The notes beneath the pieces were generated by a model that did no database searches, was not told the DNA's origin, and was given only the letters and a program-made list of their open reading frames with translations. A program made the translations under genes and the position numbers. 52,218 nucleotides of DNA from contig JAFQRW010000004.1 in NCBI GenBank assembly GCA_017409875.1, forward strand, positions 1-52,218. Reading direction: 5' to 3'. Below are positions 3,914-13,321 of this stretch, one piece after another (within the stretch, counting starts at the first letter, position 1; each line of letters opens with the position of its first letter). The stretch is from Clostridia bacterium. GTDB taxonomy: Bacteria; Bacillota; Clostridia; RGIG6154.

Positions 3914-3929
3914 AAGGTTGCTTTTTTTA
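3897..3929. terminator. Bidirectional terminator between the AlkD-like gene and pyrI
   Basis: GCAACCT (3904-3910) and AGGTTGC (3915-3921) with a 4-nt loop, flanked by an A run on the left and a T run on the right. It ends two converging transcripts and overlaps the last codons of the rightward gene. Confidence 0.9.
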
Positions 3930-4346
3930 ATCATTTGCTTTTGCTTCGCAGTATATACAGCGATAAACTCTGTTTTCTCTGTCTGTTAGTTTAAAGATAT
4001 GCTGAATATCTTGCTCTGTAGTTGTAATACATCTTGGGTTTTTGCACTTTATAACATCTGTTACTGTTTCAGGAAGTTCTAAGTGTTTCTTTTCAACAAT
4101 TTCACCATTTTTTACAACATTTACCGTTGCATCATGGTTGATGTAGCCTAAAACTTCCAGATTCAGTTCAATATTTCCGTCAATTTTTATAATGTCTTTC
4201 TTGCCCATTTTTTTGCTGGTTGCATTTTTTATAATTGCAACTGGGCAAACAAGCTCTCCTAAATTTAAATACTTATATACCTGCATACTGTTACCAGCTT
4301 TAATGTGGTCAATAACAAATCCGTTTTTAATTGAATCAATATTCAT
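3927..4346 (-). CDS. pyrI: Aspartate carbamoyltransferase regulatory subunit
   Basis: The nucleotide-binding allosteric chain that pairs with PyrB. In 139 residues there is an N-terminal alpha/beta allosteric domain (effector CTP/ATP in characterised members) and a C-terminal zinc domain with four cysteines, C101, C106, C130 and C133, that contacts the catalytic chain. It is the last gene of the pyr operon, 15 bases after pyrB. Many Bacilli lack PyrI, so its presence implies that the first committed step is under allosteric control here in addition to the leader attenuator. Confidence 0.95.
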   Translation of the reverse strand: MNIDSIKNGFVIDHIKAGNSMQVYKYLNLGELVCPVAIIKNATSKKMGKKDIIKIDGNIELNLEVLGYINHDATVNVVKNGEIVEKKHLELPETVTDVIKCKNPRCITTTEQDIQHIFKLTDRENRVYRCIYCEAKAND

Positions 4347-4361
4347 ACCATCCGCTCCCCC

Positions 4362-5276
4362 TTAATCGATTTCCAACAACTTTAATATAAGCGCCATTCT
4401 GATATATTTACCGTTTAAAGCCTGCTCAAAATAGCACGCCCTTGGGTCTTCATCTATTTTAGTGGAAATTTCATTTACTCTTGGAAGTGGATGCAAAATA
4501 GATAGATCTGCCTTTGCAGTATCCAGTTTTTCGGGAGTTAATATATAGCTGTCACGAAGTCTTATATAATCAGCCTCATTAAAAAATCTTTCTCTTTGAA
4601 CTCTGGTCATATAAAGCACATCAAGCTGCCCGATAACCTCCTGCAAATCTGACGTTTCGACAAATTCGCATTTTTCTTTTTTAAGTACATCTTTTCTTAT
4701 ATATCCCGGCACTTTAAGTTCATCCGGTGATATAAGCACAAATTTAACATTTTCATATCTTGAAAGTGCTGCAATAAGCGAGTGAACAGTTCTTCCAAAT
4801 TTAAGGTCTCCGCAAAAGCCTACTGTGATGTCGCTGAGCTTACCTTTTTTACGTTTGATTGTAAGAAGGTCAGTAAGTGTTTGTGTAGGATGATTGTGTC
4901 CGCCGTCTCCTGCATTTATAATAGGAGCATCCGATTTAAATGACGCAACCATAGGTGCGCCCTCTTTAGGATGACGCATTGCGATAATGTCTGCATAACA
5001 AGAGACAACTTTTACAGTATCGCTTACACTCTCGCCTTTTGATGCAGAGCTGCTTTGTGCTTCTGAAAATCCCAAAACATTTCCACCAAGCTCCATCATA
5101 GCCGCTTCAAAAGAAAGTCTTGTTCTTGTCGAAGGTTCAAAAAACAATGTCGCAAGCTTTTTATATTTGCACTTTTCTCTGTATTTTTCAGGATTTTTTA
5201 TTATATCGTTTGCTTTTTCAATAAGCTGTTCTATTTCATCTGTAGTAATATCTCTAATATCAATCAGATGCTTCAT
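4362..5276 (-). CDS. pyrB: Aspartate carbamoyltransferase catalytic subunit
   Basis: Condenses carbamoyl phosphate with L-aspartate in de novo pyrimidine synthesis. The carbamoyl-phosphate site STRTR is at 49-53, the lysine of the mobile 80s loop is K80 (SASKGES), and RHPKEGAP is at 101-108 with [15 protein letters not shown] at 123-137. The length of 304 residues is typical. Its ATG overlaps the pyrE stop (ATGA), and its ribosome binding site GGAGGG lies in the pyrE 3' end, so the two are coupled. Confidence 0.97.
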
Positions 5277-5911
5277 TTTGTCCCTCCTATCCAGCTTTCA
5301 TCAGATGGATTATTGCGGAAAGCGATAAGCTTTTGGATATCTTCAGGTTTTATATAACCAGTCTCTGCAGCAACCTCTGCAATCACATCAAAATTTGTAA
5401 GACTGACATTTTTAACATTTGCTTCTCTTAATCTGTCAATTCCTTTTTGCATACCGTAAGTAAAGATGCTGGCAACACCAAGAACCTCGGCACCTGCTTC
5501 TCTTAAGGCATCGACAACATCGATTACGCTGCCTCCTGTTGAAATAAGGTCTTCAATTACAACAACTTTCTGACCTTTTTCAAGTTTTCCTTCAATTCTG
5601 TTGGTTCTTCCATGATCCTTTGCGCCTGAACGAACATATCCCATTGGCATATTCATAATATGACCTGTGATAGCGGCATGCGCAATACCTGCAGTTGATG
5701 TTCCCATCAAAACTTCACATTCAGGATATTCTCTTTTTACAATCTCGGCTAAACCTTCTTCGATCATTGTTCTGACATTGGGTGCAGTAAGTGTTAATCT
5801 GTTATCGCAATACACAGGGCTTTTAATACCGCTTGCCCATGTAAACGGGTCCTCTGGTCTTAAAAACACTGCACCTATTGAAAGTAATCCTTCAGCAATT
5901 CTTCTTTCCAT
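5273..5911 (-). CDS. pyrE: Orotate phosphoribosyltransferase
   Basis: Makes orotidine 5'-phosphate from orotate and PRPP. The PRPP-binding signature [13 protein letters not shown] is at 116-128 and the flexible loop with [11 protein letters not shown] at about 98-108. Its 212 residues match the bacterial PyrE length. Ribosome binding site AAGGAGG precedes the ATG; it follows pyrF by 16 bases and overlaps pyrB by four. Confidence 0.97.
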
Positions 5912-5927
5912 TATTTAATCCTCCTTA

Positions 5928-6629
5928 TTATTCCCCACAAAATTCTCTTATACATCTTTCGTAAGCCGCAACCGGATCTTCTGCCTGAGTTATGGGTCTA
6001 CCCACAACTATGTAGTCAGAACCGATTTTGTTCGCATCTTCAGGTGTAGTAACACGAACCTGATCGCCTTTTTCGCCATCTGCAAATCTAACGCCCGGTG
6101 TTACTGTTAAAAACTCATTGCCGCATACAGCCTTTACATCTGACGCCTCAAGAGGTGAGCAAACAACACCGTCAAGTCCTGCAACTTTTGCATTTTTTGC
6201 ATAGTGTGCAACTACCTCTTTTAAAGGTTTATCAATCAAAATGTCGTTTTTCATTCTTTCTTCGCTTGTTGATGTAAGCTGAGTTACTGCAATTAAAAGC
6301 GGTCTTGTGCCGTCTTCTCTTGTTAATCCTTCGATAGCCGCCTTCATCATTTCTATTGTTCCTGATGCGTGAAGATTTGTCATATCTACATCAAGATTTG
6401 ATAAAACTTTCATTGATTTTTTTACCGTGTTTGGAATATCACAAAGCTTTAAATCAAGGAAAATTTTATGACCTCTTTTTTTAATCTCGCGCACAATTTC
6501 AGGACCCTCTGCATAAAAAAGCTCCATGCCAATTTTTACATAGGGCTTTTTACCTGTAAACTTGTCCAAAAAGCTTAAAACCTGCTCCTTTCCATCAAAG
6601 TCACAAGCGATAATAACATCTTTACCCAT
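5928..6629 (-). CDS. pyrF: Orotidine 5'-phosphate decarboxylase
   Basis: Final step of UMP synthesis. The catalytic D-x-K-x-x-D motif is [10 protein letters not shown] at 59-68 (D59, K61, D64), with the partner lysine K32 in YVKIGMELF. The phosphate-binding end [12 protein letters not shown] is near the C-terminus. The product has 233 residues. The start overlaps the pyrD stop by eight bases, a sign of coupled translation. Confidence 0.97.
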
Positions 6630-7539
6630 TATGTGCCACCCCTATTATTTCTTTTAAATTTTTAATATTGTACTTTTCCATTCTTTCAGGAAGTTTTTCT
6701 ATAATTTCCTTACAAACATAAGGATTTACAAGGTTTGCAGCTCCTACCTGAACCGCAGTTGCTCCTGCCATCATCATTTCTATAACATCGTCAGCAGAAG
6801 ATACTCCGCCCATACCGATAATAGGTATTTTAACGGCATCTGCCACTTTGTATACCATTGAAAGTGCTACAGGGAAAATGGCATCCCCTGAAAACCCACC
6901 TGCTTTTTGTGCAATAACAGGTTTTTTTCTGTTTAAATCTATTCTCATACCCACTAATGTATTTATAAGGCTGATACCGTCTGCACCTGCGTCTTCACAT
7001 GCTTTTGCTATTGAAACAATATCAGTAACATTAGGGCTTAATTTAATATACACAGGCTTTGTTGTAACCTTTTTAACCGCCCTTGTAACATCAGATACAT
7101 TTTTCTCGCTTGTACCAAAACTCATACCGCCGTTATGAACATTCGGACAGCTTACATTAACTTCAATAATCCCAACCTGTTCTTGTTTATCGATTTTCTC
7201 ACAACAATATACATATTCATCAACAGAAAATCCGCTGATATTTGCAATAACTTTTTTATTAAAGCATTTTTTCAGCTTTGGAAGTTCTTCTGATATAACT
7301 TTTTCAATGCCGGGATTTTGAAGTCCTACCGAGTTAATCATTCCGCTTTTACATTCTGCAATTCTTGGAGTTGGGTTGCCAAAACGGGCATCTTTTGTTG
7401 TGCCTTTAAACGAAAATGAACCAAGGCAGTTAATGTCATAAAGCTCAGCAAACTCATAACCAAACCCAAAAGTTCCGCTTGCAGGAATAACAGGATTGTC
7501 AAGTGTAATACCGCTTAATATGACTTTTGTATCTACCAT
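6622..7539 (-). CDS. pyrD: Dihydroorotate dehydrogenase B, catalytic subunit (class 1B)
   Basis: Oxidises dihydroorotate to orotate with FMN. The catalytic base of class 1 enzymes is a cysteine, here C131 in NVSCPN (128-133). The FMN-binding stretch SFKGTT is at 43-48, and the C-terminal [10 protein letters not shown] and [11 protein letters not shown] motifs follow. The adjacent pyrK, whose end it overlaps by seven bases, makes this the NAD-dependent class 1B heterotetramer rather than the fumarate-dependent 1A form. Confidence 0.97.
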
Positions 7540-8261
7540 ATTATTTCCTCCTTACATAAAACCGGGCCTTCTTTACATATACGTTTGTTTCCATATTTGG
7601 TTTTGCAGCTGCATCCCATACAAGCTCCGAATCCGCATCCCATTCTTTCTTCAAAACTAAACTCCCCGTCAGTTTTTGAAACATCATAAATTGCTTTAAG
7701 CATCGGTTCAGGTCCGCACGAATAAGTATATGTGTAATTAAGATTTTCAAGTGCTGCAGTTACAAACCCTTTTGTGCCAAAGCTTCCGTCTGCAGTTGTA
7801 ACTATGGTATCACAAACTGCATTAAACTCATCTAAGTAGTATATTTCATCTTTTGTGTTAAAACCCATTATAACAGTTGGGGTTTTACCCTGATCCTTTA
7901 ATACTTTTGCAAGGTTATACATCGGAGGAACACCTGCACCCCCGCCGATTAAAACTGGGAACTGTCCGCTTTTTGAAGTATCAAAACCGTTACCTAAGCC
8001 TGTTAAAATATCAAGCTTTCCTTCTTTCATCTCACTCATTTTTTCTGTGCCCGCACCTACTACTTTGTAGAGTATTGTAAAATCATTTTCAGAATAATCG
8101 CACACAGAAATCGGTCTTCTCAAGAAAAATCCGTCAAGCTTGATATTAACAAACTGTCCGGGTGCTGAAATCGCACTCGCATCGCCTGCAAGCACCATTT
8201 TATACATACTTTTATTAAGTTTAATGTTTTCTTTAATATCAAATAAACCTTGTTTTAACAT
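7533..8261 (-). CDS. pyrK: Dihydroorotate dehydrogenase B, electron-transfer subunit
   Basis: Passes electrons from PyrD to NAD through FAD and a [2Fe-2S] cluster. In the 242-residue product the FAD motif RRPIS is at 48-52, the nucleotide-binding GGGAGVPP at 107-113 region, and the cluster cysteines are C209, C214, C217 and C229 in MGCGFGACMGCSCK and the following segment. I chose the ATG at 8261 because AAGGAGA stands five bases before it; the upstream ATG at 8279 lies ahead of that ribosome binding site and inside the carB end. Its stop overlaps the pyrD start. Confidence 0.96.
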   Translation of the reverse strand: MLKQGLFDIKENIKLNKSMYKMVLAGDASAISAPGQFVNIKLDGFFLRRPISVCDYSENDFTILYKVVGAGTEKMSEMKEGKLDILTGLGNGFDTSKSGQFPVLIGGGAGVPPMYNLAKVLKDQGKTPTVIMGFNTKDEIYYLDEFNAVCDTIVTTADGSFGTKGFVTAALENLNYTYTYSCGPEPMLKAIYDVSKTDGEFSFEERMGCGFGACMGCSCKTKYGNKRICKEGPVLCKEEIIW

Positions 8262-8271
8262 TCTTCTCTCC

Positions 8272-11200
8272 TTACGCATCTATTGTTGAGATTGTAAGTG
8301 TTATTTCTTCCAACACATCAAGCAAAACTCTTACGGTGTCGAGTGAAGTAAAGAGTGTTACATTGTTCTCACTTGCAGTATGTCTTATTTCAACACCATC
8401 TTCATAGTGAACACCCGAAAGAATTGCGCGGGTATTAATTACATAACTTACATATCCTGCTCTGATAGCCTCTAAAATCTCGGTGCTTCCTTCCGAAAGC
8501 TTTCTTAAAACTTTTGTTCTGATGCCATGTTCTTTAAGGAAGTCTGCTGTCCCGATTGTAGCTTCAATGTTAAAGCCCATATCGTAGAATCGTTTAATGA
8601 GCGGAAGTGCTTCTTCTTTGTCTTCGTCCGCAAGTGTTACTAAAACAGTTCCGTAGTTCTGAAGCTTCATACCTGATGCCTGAAGCGCTTTATAAAGTGC
8701 ACGGTTTAATTTGTCATCATAACCGATTGCTTCACCTGTTGATTTCATTTCAGGTGAAAGGTATGCGTCAAGACCTCTGATTTTGCTGAATGAAAATACC
8801 GGAACTTTTACATACCAACGTTTTTTCTCTTCAGGATAAATATCAAATATGCCCTGTTCTTTTAAAGATTTGCCCATAATAACTTCTGTCGCAATATCAG
8901 CTAAGCTATATCCTGTTGCTTTTGATAAAAACGGTACTGTTCTTGAAGAACGTGGGTTAACCTCAATTATATACACGTTATCGTCTTTATCAACGATAAA
9001 CTGAATATTGAAAAGTCCCACAATTCCAATACCAAGACCTAATTTTTTAGCATACTGAAGGATTATACCCTTAACTTTATCAGAAATGCTGAATGTAGGA
9101 TAAACACTGATTGAATCGCCTGAATGAACACCTGTACGTTCAACAAGTTCCATAATTCCCGGAACAAACACATCTCTGCCATCGCAGATAGCATCAATTT
9201 CAACTTCTTTACCCTGAATGTATTTATCTACAAGTACCGGTTTATCTTCATCAATTTCAACTGCTGTTTTAAGATAATGTCTTAAATGCTCTTCCTTTGC
9301 AACAATTTGCATTGCTCTGCCACCAAGAACGAAGCTTGGACGAACAAGAACCGGATATCCGATTTCTTCTGCAGCTTTGATGCCATCTTCAATATTTGTT
9401 ACTGCTCTACCTTTAGGTTGCGGAATGTTAAGTTCTTCAAGAATTTTCTCAAAACTGTCACGGTTTTCTGCTCGCTCTATTGCTTCACAATCTGTACCTA
9501 CAATTTTAACTCCTCGCTTCATTAAAGGCTCAGCAAGGTTGATTGCAGTTTGTCCGCCGAGTGATGCAATAACTCCCTCAGGTTTTTCAAACTCAATAAT
9601 ATTCATAACGTCTTCTGTTGTAAGTGGCTCAAAATAGAGTTTATCTGCCGTTGTATAATCAGTTGAAACAGTTTCAGGGTTATTGTTGATAATAATAGCT
9701 TCATATCCTGATTTTTTAATGGTTGCAACTGCATGAACTGTTGAATAGTCAAACTCAACGCCCTGACCAATTCTTATTGGTCCTGCACCTAAAACTATAA
9801 GCTTCTTTTTATCGGAAAGTTCTGATTTGTTTTCGCCCTGATATGAAGAATAAAAATATGGAATATACGCTCCCGTATGGCATGTATCTACCATCTTGTA
9901 AACAGGGAAAATATTATTTTCTTTTCTTAAATTGAAAACTTCAAGTTCGGTAAGATTCCAGAGTTTTGCTATAAATTTATCGGAAAATCCCATTTTCTTC
10001 GCAGAAATCAAAGTTTCAATGTTATTGGGATTTGCCTTAATTTCTTTTTCTTTTTCAACTATTGTTTTTAATGCTTCCAAGAAATAAGGAGTAATTCTTG
10101 TCACATCATACAGTTTTTCGATTGTTGTATTAAGTCTTAAAAGTTGCGCTATGGCAAAGATATTGTCATCTTTAAAGTCTTTAATATAATCAAAAAGTTC
10201 ATCTTGTGACATATTATCAAACTTTGGAAGGTGGAAATGATTTGCTCCTACCTCAAGGCTTCGTACAGATTTGAGCAAGCATTCTTCAAGACATGAACCA
10301 ATTCCCATAACCTCACCTGTTGCCTTCATCTGTGTGCCTAATGTGTTTGGTGCAGATGTAAACTTATCAAACGGAAATCTCGGAAGCTTTGCAATTACAT
10401 AATCAAGCTGTGGTTCAAATCTTGCTGTTGTGTTTGCAATTTTAATTTCCTCAAGTGCCATACCAACTGCAATTTTTGCTGTCACTCTTGCAATAGGATA
10501 TCCGCTTGCCTTTGATGCTAAGGCCGAAGAACGTGAAACTCTTGGGTTTACTTCAATCAGATAGTACTCGCTGGAATTTGGGTTAAGTGCAAACTGAACG
10601 TTACATCCGCCCTCAATTTTAAGCTCGCGGATAAGTTTAATTGCGCTGTCATTTAACATTTTATAGTCGTGGTCATTTAAAGTCATAATTGGTGCTACAA
10701 CTATTGAGTCGCCTGTATGAACTCCAACAGGATCAATGTTTTCCATACCGCAGATGGTAATCGCTGTATCGTTTGAGTCACGCATTACCTCAAATTCAAT
10801 TTCTTTATATCCTTTAACGCTTTTTTCTATAAGCACCTGATGTACGGGCGATAATTTAAACGCATTAGTACCTATTTCAACCAATTCTTCTTCATTGTTA
10901 GCAAATCCGCCGCCTGTTCCGCCAAGAGTAAAAGCAGGACGAAGTACAACAGGATAGCCAATATCTTTTGCCGCTTTTTTAGCTTCATCCAATGAATATG
11001 TAATTTCAGAAGGAATAGTTGGTTCTCCTATTGACTGACAAAGCTCTTTGAAAAGCTCTCTGTCTTCTGCACGTTCAATACTTTCACTGCTTGTTCCCAA
11101 AAGCTTGACACCGCATTCTTTTAATATTCCTTTTTTCTCAAGCTGCATTGCAAGATTAAGTCCTGTCTGTCCGCCAATTCCAGGAACGATTGCATCAGGA

Positions 11201-11445
11201 CGTTCATATCTTAAAATTTTTGCAATATATTCTAAAGTTAAAGGCTCCATATAAACTTTATCTGCAATAGTTGTATCTGTCATAATTGTAGCAGGGTTTG
11301 AGTTGCAAAGCACAACCTCATATCCTTCTTCTTTAAGTGCCAAACACGCCTGTGTTCCTGCATAGTCAAATTCTGCAGCCTGCCCAATTACAATAGGACC
11401 TGAGCCTATAATCAGAACTTTTTTAATGTCTGTTCTTTTTGCCAT
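8272..11445 (-). CDS. carB: Carbamoyl-phosphate synthase large subunit
   Basis: Synthesises carbamoyl phosphate from bicarbonate, ammonia and two ATP. The 1057 residues contain the two homologous ATP-grasp halves; the first opens with GSGPIVIGQAAEFDYAG near residue 14 and the second with GAGPIRIGQGVEFDYS near 550. A C-terminal MGS-like domain, the usual site of UMP/ornithine regulation, follows. The small glutaminase subunit gene carA, which normally sits directly upstream, is absent: pyrC ends 20 bases before the carB start. The enzyme must either use a CarA coded elsewhere or free ammonia. Confidence 0.97.
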   Translation of the reverse strand: MAKRTDIKKVLIIGSGPIVIGQAAEFDYAGTQACLALKEEGYEVVLCNSNPATIMTDTTIADKVYMEPLTLEYIAKILRYERPDAIVPGIGGQTGLNLAMQLEKKGILKECGVKLLGTSSESIERAEDRELFKELCQSIGEPTIPSEITYSLDEAKKAAKDIGYPVVLRPAFTLGGTGGGFANNEEELVEIGTNAFKLSPVHQVLIEKSVKGYKEIEFEVMRDSNDTAITICGMENIDPVGVHTGDSIVVAPIMTLNDHDYKMLNDSAIKLIRELKIEGGCNVQFALNPNSSEYYLIEVNPRVSRSSALASKASGYPIARVTAKIAVGMALEEIKIANTTARFEPQLDYVIAKLPRFPFDKFTSAPNTLGTQMKATGEVMGIGSCLEECLLKSVRSLEVGANHFHLPKFDNMSQDELFDYIKDFKDDNIFAIAQLLRLNTTIEKLYDVTRITPYFLEALKTIVEKEKEIKANPNNIETLISAKKMGFSDKFIAKLWNLTELEVFNLRKENNIFPVYKMVDTCHTGAYIPYFYSSYQGENKSELSDKKKLIVLGAGPIRIGQGVEFDYSTVHAVATIKKSGYEAIIINNNPETVSTDYTTADKLYFEPLTTEDVMNIIEFEKPEGVIASLGGQTAINLAEPLMKRGVKIVGTDCEAIERAENRDSFEKILEELNIPQPKGRAVTNIEDGIKAAEEIGYPVLVRPSFVLGGRAMQIVAKEEHLRHYLKTAVEIDEDKPVLVDKYIQGKEVEIDAICDGRDVFVPGIMELVERTGVHSGDSISVYPTFSISDKVKGIILQYAKKLGLGIGIVGLFNIQFIVDKDDNVYIIEVNPRSSRTVPFLSKATGYSLADIATEVIMGKSLKEQGIFDIYPEEKKRWYVKVPVFSFSKIRGLDAYLSPEMKSTGEAIGYDDKLNRALYKALQASGMKLQNYGTVLVTLADEDKEEALPLIKRFYDMGFNIEATIGTADFLKEHGIRTKVLRKLSEGSTEILEAIRAGYVSYVINTRAILSGVHYEDGVEIRHTASENNVTLFTSLDTVRVLLDVLEEITLTISTIDA

Positions 11446-11465
11446 TTCAAATTCCTCCCGTATAT

Positions 11466-12686
11466 TTAAACCAATTTTCCATTAATTACTGTAAACAAAT
11501 GTTTTCCAAAAAGCTTTTCACCCTCAAATGGTGTAGCCTTTCCCATTGAAACAAATTCATTGGGATTTACAATAAATTCTTTCTCCAAATCCCATACGCA
11601 ATAATCATCACCTGTTGGTATATTAAAGCGTTTTTTAGGATTGACAGACATAAGCTGAATAAGTTTTTCCAGCGTTATGATGCCCGTTTTAACAAAATGC
11701 GTATACATAAGCTGGAAAGCTATCTCAATTCCTGTTATTCCAAATGCACTTTTTTCAAGCCCCTTTGATTTTTCTTCTTCAGAATGTGGGGCATGATCGG
11801 TTGCAATCATATCTATCGTTCCGTCTTTAATTCCCTCGATTAAAGCTTTTTTATCTTCAATACTTCTAAGTGGCGGGTTCATTTTGAATTTTCCGTCCTC
11901 TTTTAAATCACTGTCAGTTAAAATAAGGTAATGAGGTGCTGTTTCGCATGTGACATCTATTCCTCTTTTTTTTGCCTTCCTTATAAGCTCTACACTCTCT
12001 TTAGTGGAAATGTGGCACACATGATATTTAACTCCTGTTTTTTCAGCCAGTATTAAATCTCTTTCTATTTGTTTCCATTCACTTTCTGAGCAAATTCCCT
12101 TATGGTTATGTTTTTTTGCGTACTCACCGTCATGAATATATCCACCTTTTAAAAGCGAATTCACTTCACAATGAGCAACAATCATTTTATTAAGGGACTT
12201 GGCTTTTCGCATTGCCGCCTCCATCATTTCATCACTTTGAACGCCCCTGCCGTCATCCGAAAATGCTATGCAGTAATCACTCATCTGCTCCATATCTGAA
12301 AGCTCATCCCCAAGCTGCCCCTTTGTTATAGATGCGTAAGGATACACATTTATCACCGCATCATTTTTTATAATATCGAGTTGCTTTTTTAAATTTTCCA
12401 AATTGTCAGGCACAGGATTTAAATTCGGCATACTGCAAACTGCAGTATATCCGCCTTTTAAAGACGCTTTGCTTCCACTTTTAATTGTTTCTTTATAAGA
12501 AAAACCCGGCTCACGCAAATGAACATGTACATCGCAAAAGCCGGGGAAAATATGAACTTTTGAAAAATCGAAAATAGTGCCGCCTTGGGTTAAAGACAGC
12601 TTTTCACAACCGTTTGGAGCAGTAACATCTTTAATTTCAAATTTGTTATCGGTATATACCGACGCATTCTTCAGCACTAAAGCCAT
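11466..12686 (-). CDS. pyrC: Dihydroorotase
   Basis: Zinc amidohydrolase that cyclises carbamoyl aspartate. The metal motif HVHLREPG is at 54-61, with further metal or catalytic residues in VAHCEVN (about 170), HVCHIST (about 225) and ATDHAPH (about 300). The 406-residue length fits the type I dihydroorotase of Gram-positives. It is the first gene of the pyr operon and its ribosome binding site AGGAGA lies directly after the leader terminator, so expression depends on read-through of that terminator. Confidence 0.96.
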   Translation of the reverse strand: MALVLKNASVYTDNKFEIKDVTAPNGCEKLSLTQGGTIFDFSKVHIFPGFCDVHVHLREPGFSYKETIKSGSKASLKGGYTAVCSMPNLNPVPDNLENLKKQLDIIKNDAVINVYPYASITKGQLGDELSDMEQMSDYCIAFSDDGRGVQSDEMMEAAMRKAKSLNKMIVAHCEVNSLLKGGYIHDGEYAKKHNHKGICSESEWKQIERDLILAEKTGVKYHVCHISTKESVELIRKAKKRGIDVTCETAPHYLILTDSDLKEDGKFKMNPPLRSIEDKKALIEGIKDGTIDMIATDHAPHSEEEKSKGLEKSAFGITGIEIAFQLMYTHFVKTGIITLEKLIQLMSVNPKKRFNIPTGDDYCVWDLEKEFIVNPNEFVSMGKATPFEGEKLFGKHLFTVINGKLV

Positions 12687-12704: not shown

Positions 12705-12736
12705 CAAAAAAAATCTTGCCGTGCGACAAGATTTTA
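12705..12736 (-). terminator. Leader terminator of the pyr operon
   Basis: On the minus strand AAATCTTG (12734-12727), an 8-nt loop and CAAGATTT (12718-12711) run into a T tract ending about 12705. It stands 20 bases before the pyrC start, between promoter and first gene, which is the position of an attenuator rather than an operon end. Confidence 0.85.
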
Positions 12737-12822
12737 AAATGGACATAGCTTATCCATACAAACATAAAATTTGAAAATCTTGTCGGCATCAAGGTACCGC
12801 ACTTAAAGATTGATTTTTATCT
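12725..12822 (-). promoter_or_regulatory. pyr operon leader with alternative antiterminator helix
   Basis: Leader bases 12784-12774 (GACAAGATTTT on the minus strand) are perfectly complementary over 11 bases to 12735-12725, which is the 5' arm of the leader terminator. The long antiterminator helix and the terminator therefore exclude each other. Smaller hairpins lie upstream, including one with stem CGGTA/TGCCG and loop CCTTGA (about 12797-12782), which overlaps the antiterminator arm, and GGATA/TGTCC between the arms. I do not see the purine-rich PyrR-binding loop known from Bacillus pyr leaders. Pyrimidine-responsive attenuation is likely; the sensor is unknown. Confidence 0.75.
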
Positions 12823-12828
12823 TTATAT

Positions 12829-12857
12829 ATTATAGCAAAGCAAAGTATAATTGTCAA
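12829..12857 (-). promoter_or_regulatory. Promoter of the pyr operon
   Basis: A perfect consensus on the minus strand: TTGACA (12852-12857), 17 bases, TATAAT (12829-12834). Transcription should start near 12822, giving a leader of about 135 bases. Such a strong promoter fits control by attenuation afterwards. Confidence 0.9.
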
Positions 12858-12874
12858 TATAAATTCACAAAAAA

Positions 12875-13321
12875 TCAGTTGTTTTGCTGGATATATTTTT
12901 GTGTCATTAAAGCCGCCTCATAAACAAGCTCACTGCAAGGCCTTTTTTTATAAAACTCTTCTGTTCTTTTTGTTGGAACAGGAGAATTTTCTGCCTCTTT
13001 TAATCCCAAAAGTTCTCTGCAGATATAAGAACCGTTGTTTAAAGCAAACTCTTTGGCAAACTGCTGTATTCTTGAATAATGGTCTTTTTTTGCAGCATCA
13101 TCTTTTGGGCTAGTATAACCATAAAGACATCCAAGTACCATAAAAGCTCCGCTTACCGCACCGCACACCTCTCTTAATCTTCCCATTCCCCCTCCAAACG
13201 AAGAGGATAATTTAAGGGCGGTTTCTTCATCTATACCCATCACATCAGAAAAAGCACAAAATACCGCTTGTGCACAATTATACCCATTATTAAATAAATC
13301 TTTTGCTTTTTGTGCGTACAT
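12875..13321 (-). CDS. C_GCAxxG_C_C family protein (putative redox protein)
   Basis: A 148-residue protein with the conserved cysteine pattern of this family: C16 in GYNCAQAV, C53 in the CGAVSGAFMVLG stretch, C101 in ICRELLG and C129 in RPCSELV, plus the glycine-rich FGGGMGRL before C53. The family is widespread in anaerobes; a redox or metal-binding role is assumed from the cysteines but no reaction is established. It is the last gene of the nusB-to-bioY run, two bases after bioY, and ends just before the pyr promoter region without a clear terminator. Confidence 0.85.
   Translation of the reverse strand: MYAQKAKDLFNNGYNCAQAVFCAFSDVMGIDEETALKLSSSFGGGMGRLREVCGAVSGAFMVLGCLYGYTSPKDDAAKKDHYSRIQQFAKEFALNNGSYICRELLGLKEAENSPVPTKRTEEFYKKRPCSELVYEAALMTQKYIQQNN

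Follow-up and report, generated by a model that had tools for sequence, protein, structure and literature searches.

The window analyzed here, a 52,218-nucleotide stretch of a Clostridia bacterium genome, carries on its reverse strand the gene cluster pyrC-carB-pyrK-pyrD-pyrF-pyrE-pyrB-pyrI (3927-12686; pyrB and pyrI were named by sequence inspection only), which is presumed to be regulated by the leader in front of pyrC. In this cluster carB directly follows pyrC (8272-12686), and carA is absent. The window features described below lie on the same reverse strand. The promoter, called perfect in the earlier note, has a -35 hexamer TTGACA (12852-12857) and a -10 hexamer TATAAT (12829-12834) separated by a 17-nt spacer. 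A gene encoding a C-GCAxxG-C-C family protein (12875-13321) ends 17 nt before the -35 hexamer, leaving no room for a terminator between this gene and the pyr promoter, and read-through into the attenuator is therefore possible.

Just before pyrC, the sequence and its folding reveal an intrinsic terminator (12706-12735) composed of an 11-bp stem (arms 12735-12725 and 12720-12710), a GCAC loop, and eight U residues (T at 12713-12706 in the DNA). The upstream segment GACAAGATTTT (12784-12774) is the exact reverse complement of AAAATCTTGTC (12735-12725) over 11 bases, and the flanking pair 12785/12724 extends the resulting antiterminator helix from 11 to 12 bp. Its 5′ strand, CGACAAGAUUUU, occupies 12774-12785, and its 3′ strand, AAAAUCUUGUCG (12724-12735), is also the 5′ arm of the terminator. 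Among 2000 shuffles of the upstream leader that preserved dinucleotide composition, complementarity to the terminator arm extended to at most 10 bases and never to 12 bp, and thus the predicted exchange between antiterminator and terminator helices is beyond chance. The leader fold is also more stable than that of shuffled sequences (z of -2.69). The promoter, the complementary segments, and the terminator of the earlier note were all recovered, and its proposal of an attenuator with helix exchange is supported by the sequence as well as by the comparison with relatives described below.

The earlier note had also pointed out a CGGTA/TGCCG hairpin with a CCTTGA loop, which is indeed present at 12799-12784 (upper hairpin CGGUA-CCUUGA-UGCCG; hexaloop at 12794-12789), as indicated by folding, comparison, and the covariance model. 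It had overlooked that the hairpin caps a longer element, in which AATCTT and AAGATT flank a TTTAA bulge. In the RNA, AAUCUU (12811-12806) pairs with AAGAUU (12781-12776) to form a lower stem below the hairpin. The entire element, AAUCUUUAAGUGCGGUACCUUGAUGCCGACAAGAUU (12776-12811), has the architecture of a PyrR-type anti-antiterminator, with a 6-bp lower stem, an asymmetric bulge containing UUUAA (12803-12807), a 5-bp upper stem, and a hexaloop. Alone, it folds at -7.9 kcal/mol. The leader thus contains three mutually exclusive helices, namely the anti-antiterminator, the antiterminator, and the terminator. The antiterminator state is more stable by folding energy than the anti-antiterminator combined with the terminator (-31.7 vs. 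-28.9 kcal/mol), and a stabilizing protein is therefore plausible.

The Rfam model of PyrR sites, RF00515, aligns end to end with this element at 39.3 bits. This value is below the gathering score of 54, which is also missed by a canonical site from a sister genus; since that canonical leader scores just 43.9 bits, the low score is no proof of degeneration. A scan of the window at the Rfam gathering cut-offs gave no PyrR match, and the site was found with a permissive scan, in which the leader had no credible match to any Rfam family other than PyrR. A whole-genome scan with RF00515, in which 150 of 200 candidates were scored, missed the window site and listed weak matches alone, probably reflecting a first-look limit of that scan.

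To compare this leader with those of relatives, pyrC loci were fetched from genome contigs (80 loci) and from the same family (4 loci). Many relatives have boxes of the form TTTAA...CGAUACAGAGA upstream of pyrC, at the same place as the window element. The site in the sister genus (locus L019, genome G004) is ATCTTTAAAGCGATACAGAGATATCGACAAGAT, and that of another genome, CTTTAAGTGCGGTACAGAGATGCCGACAAG, differs from the window site solely by AGA in place of CTT in the loop. In an alignment of 17 boxes, both UUUAA and C.G.GA were invariant. Both sides change in 8 of the 11 stem pairs among the relatives, compared with an average of 4.5 in shuffled controls, none of which reached 8 in 500 trials. 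A covariance model built from these 17 boxes, with the window left out, scored the window site at 24.9 bits over 12813-12774, the best match in the window (the next reached 17.1 bits). On the 1.46-Mb genome, the window site was the sole match at E ≤ 10 among the 150 of 441 candidates scored, and no second box was found among them; its E-value of 0.13 is modest, and the case for the site rests on its position before pyrC and its best rank. A loose box pattern matched the genome 41 times vs. 22 times for the reversed control and was mostly uninformative. In several relatives the box segment (e.g., GACAAGAT, GGCAAGATT, and TCGGCAAGG) also pairs with the 5′ arm of their own terminator, a pairing that a simple helix finder did not detect in all relatives.

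Other kinds of pyrC leader were also observed among these loci. Five (L025, L060, L065, L075, and L095) have PyrR boxes whose loop lacks position 2, being one base shorter (C-GAGA), a recurrent variant. Two others, L048 and L077, lack a PyrR box and share, approximately 100 nt upstream of pyrC, CTCGGTGT-N-C-NN-AGTGT ... CTCCTTGCAT/TTCCTTGCAT with a terminator-like end; they gave no Rfam match at E 0.01 and are possibly another type of pyr leader. The leaders L076, L102, and L021 have a terminator, no PyrR box, and no Rfam match, and no pyrR was found in their genomes (G023, G030, and G005); if regulated, they need another sensor.

PyrR sites have the hexaloop consensus CNGNGA, with invariant C, G, G, and A, which is reproduced by the alignments of the relatives. 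The window hexaloop, CCUUGA, retains the C at position 1 and the G and A at positions 5 and 6, and has U at position 3 (12792), where every canonical relative checked in the alignments and the genome survey has G. Compared with the commonest loop, three consecutive bases are changed. Since positions 2 and 4 vary freely among relatives (e.g., CCGUGA in L074), position 3 alone truly departs from the consensus. In a survey of 391 genomes of the class, the pattern with G at position 3 occurred at 48 sites in 38 genomes, while that with A, C, or T occurred once, in the window; these counts describe the sites searched by a pattern that fixes CG stem ends, in related genomes that are not independent. 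The terminal loop is crucial for PyrR binding (PMC7430163). The substitution at position 3 may have changed the affinity for PyrR, or it may be compensated by the protein.

The earlier note had proposed a search of the genome for pyrR, and a full-length, intact pyrR was found on another contig, outside the pyr operon. Its product scores 225.7 bits against NF003549, above the equivalog cut-off of 138, and 186.8 bits against the Bacillus subtilis protein (1a3c). A promoter-like stretch lies close upstream of the gene, which lacks a box of its own. The gene co-occurs with the box: pyrR is present in 24 of the 25 genomes with a pyrC box and in none of the five without one. In the class survey it is present in 36 of the 38 genomes with a canonical box, compared with 210 of 391 overall, and the two exceptions are both incomplete genomes, G099 (75% complete) and G061 (62%). 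In an alignment of 132 PyrR proteins, 25 columns are invariant in the other 131, and the window organism's PyrR keeps 24 of these, breaking the one at Arg15 (B. subtilis numbering), which is replaced by Lys; R19, H140, K152, and the PRPP motif are kept. As a control, we counted PyrRs that break one column invariant in all the rest and found 6 of 132 (~5%). Such a break is therefore unusual without being rare, and the exchange of Arg for Lys is itself conservative. R15 precedes R19 and H22 by four and seven residues and, if this segment is a helix, the three would lie on the same face. PyrR binds RNA on a basic concave surface (PMC7430163). As a possible specificity partner, B. subtilis Thr18 (Ala in the window organism's PyrR) was discarded, since this position differs widely among relatives.

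Taken together, these data make it likely that the leader is a PyrR-controlled pyr operon attenuator homologous to those of related Clostridia, and the sensor is very probably PyrR. The statement in the earlier note that no PyrR site is recognizable is thus mostly wrong, given the architecture and homology of the hairpin and the presence of pyrR. In known systems, UMP-bound PyrR stabilizes the anti-antiterminator so that the terminator forms, and otherwise the antiterminator forms (PMC7430163, PMC6296669). From this established biology we infer PyrR binding, the nucleotide response, and the effect on transcription at the present leader. At high UMP/UTP, PyrR would bind the anti-antiterminator (12811-12776) and hold AAGAUU there, allowing the terminator to form and stopping transcription before pyrC; at low UMP/UTP, the AAGAUU segment would pair with the 5′ arm of the terminator (12 bp) and transcription would continue. 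The leader shares with the PyrR attenuators of RF00515 (Bacillus subtilis, Enterococcus, and Streptococcus) the UUUAA bulge, the 5-bp upper stem, the 6-nt loop, the downstream antiterminator and terminator, the position before pyr genes, and the presence of PyrR in the genome. It differs from them in its loop (CCUUGA as against CNGNGA), in having a single predicted genomic site, and in a boxless pyrR outside the operon. Compared with the pyrC leader of the sister genus, it has the same position, stems, bulge, and type of terminator, whereas the loop there is the canonical CAGAGA and a second box precedes pyrR. This leader is not a new class, and there is no evidence for a new riboswitch or sensor; because one loop base violates the strict consensus, we regard it as a variant of the PyrR attenuator and not a standard member. 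Among the sensors listed in the earlier note, the unusual PyrR site was accordingly retained, one hexaloop base off CNGNGA, while another protein and a direct nucleotide-binding RNA found no support.

Direct sensing of a nucleotide by the leader RNA, with no protein involved, is extremely improbable, as the helix exchange is the single observation in its favor, and it conflicts with the clear homology to PyrR sites, the pyrR in the genome, and the lack of another credible Rfam family in the window scan. Attenuation by a leader peptide or UTP-dependent pausing, as in enterobacterial pyrBI, is highly improbable. An open frame read by eye (MPTRFSNFMF...) does run from an AUG at 12789 through the terminator, but this AUG lies within the box hairpin with no clear ribosome site before it, and the peptide is not conserved, the sister-genus leader having no such frame (ATG followed immediately by TAA). 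It is also improbable that the site is canonical and its loop misassembled: the changed bases are unique and come from one assembly, but a change of three adjacent bases is unlike a single miscall, and pyrR, elsewhere in the genome, also has a unique change.

A reading that keeps the homology and differs in present function is that the PyrR site is decaying, the loop mutation weakening or abolishing PyrR binding and leaving the operon near constitutive, as the more stable of the two states is the antiterminator. The otherwise invariant loop G, the boxless pyrR (compared with two boxes in the sister genome G004), and the family members G001, G003, and G005, which have neither a box upstream of pyrC nor pyrR, would agree with such decay. 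We nevertheless regard it as rather unlikely, since UUUAA, both stems, the 12-bp antiterminator, the terminator, and a full-length PyrR are all intact.

Within the preferred assignment as a PyrR attenuator, a possible though less likely than not reading is that position 3 of the loop (G to U) and PyrR residue 15 (Arg to Lys) changed in concert, yielding a PyrR with shifted RNA specificity; with one predicted target in the genome, such a joint change would be permissible. Linking the two changes is a hypothesis drawn from a single lineage. This deviant-loop attenuator is thus perhaps a co-evolved RNA-protein pair, or perhaps a case of early decay. Its discovery also illustrates that a site with clear homology can score under the Rfam gathering threshold and be overlooked. 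The mode of regulation is a textbook one, and the interest of this system lies in an RNA-protein pair in which one otherwise invariant loop base and one otherwise invariant arginine have both changed naturally. If true, the joint change would point to Arg15 as the residue contacting the loop guanine, and since to our knowledge no PyrR-RNA complex has been solved, the pair of loop base and arginine offers a direct test of the residue that reads the loop.
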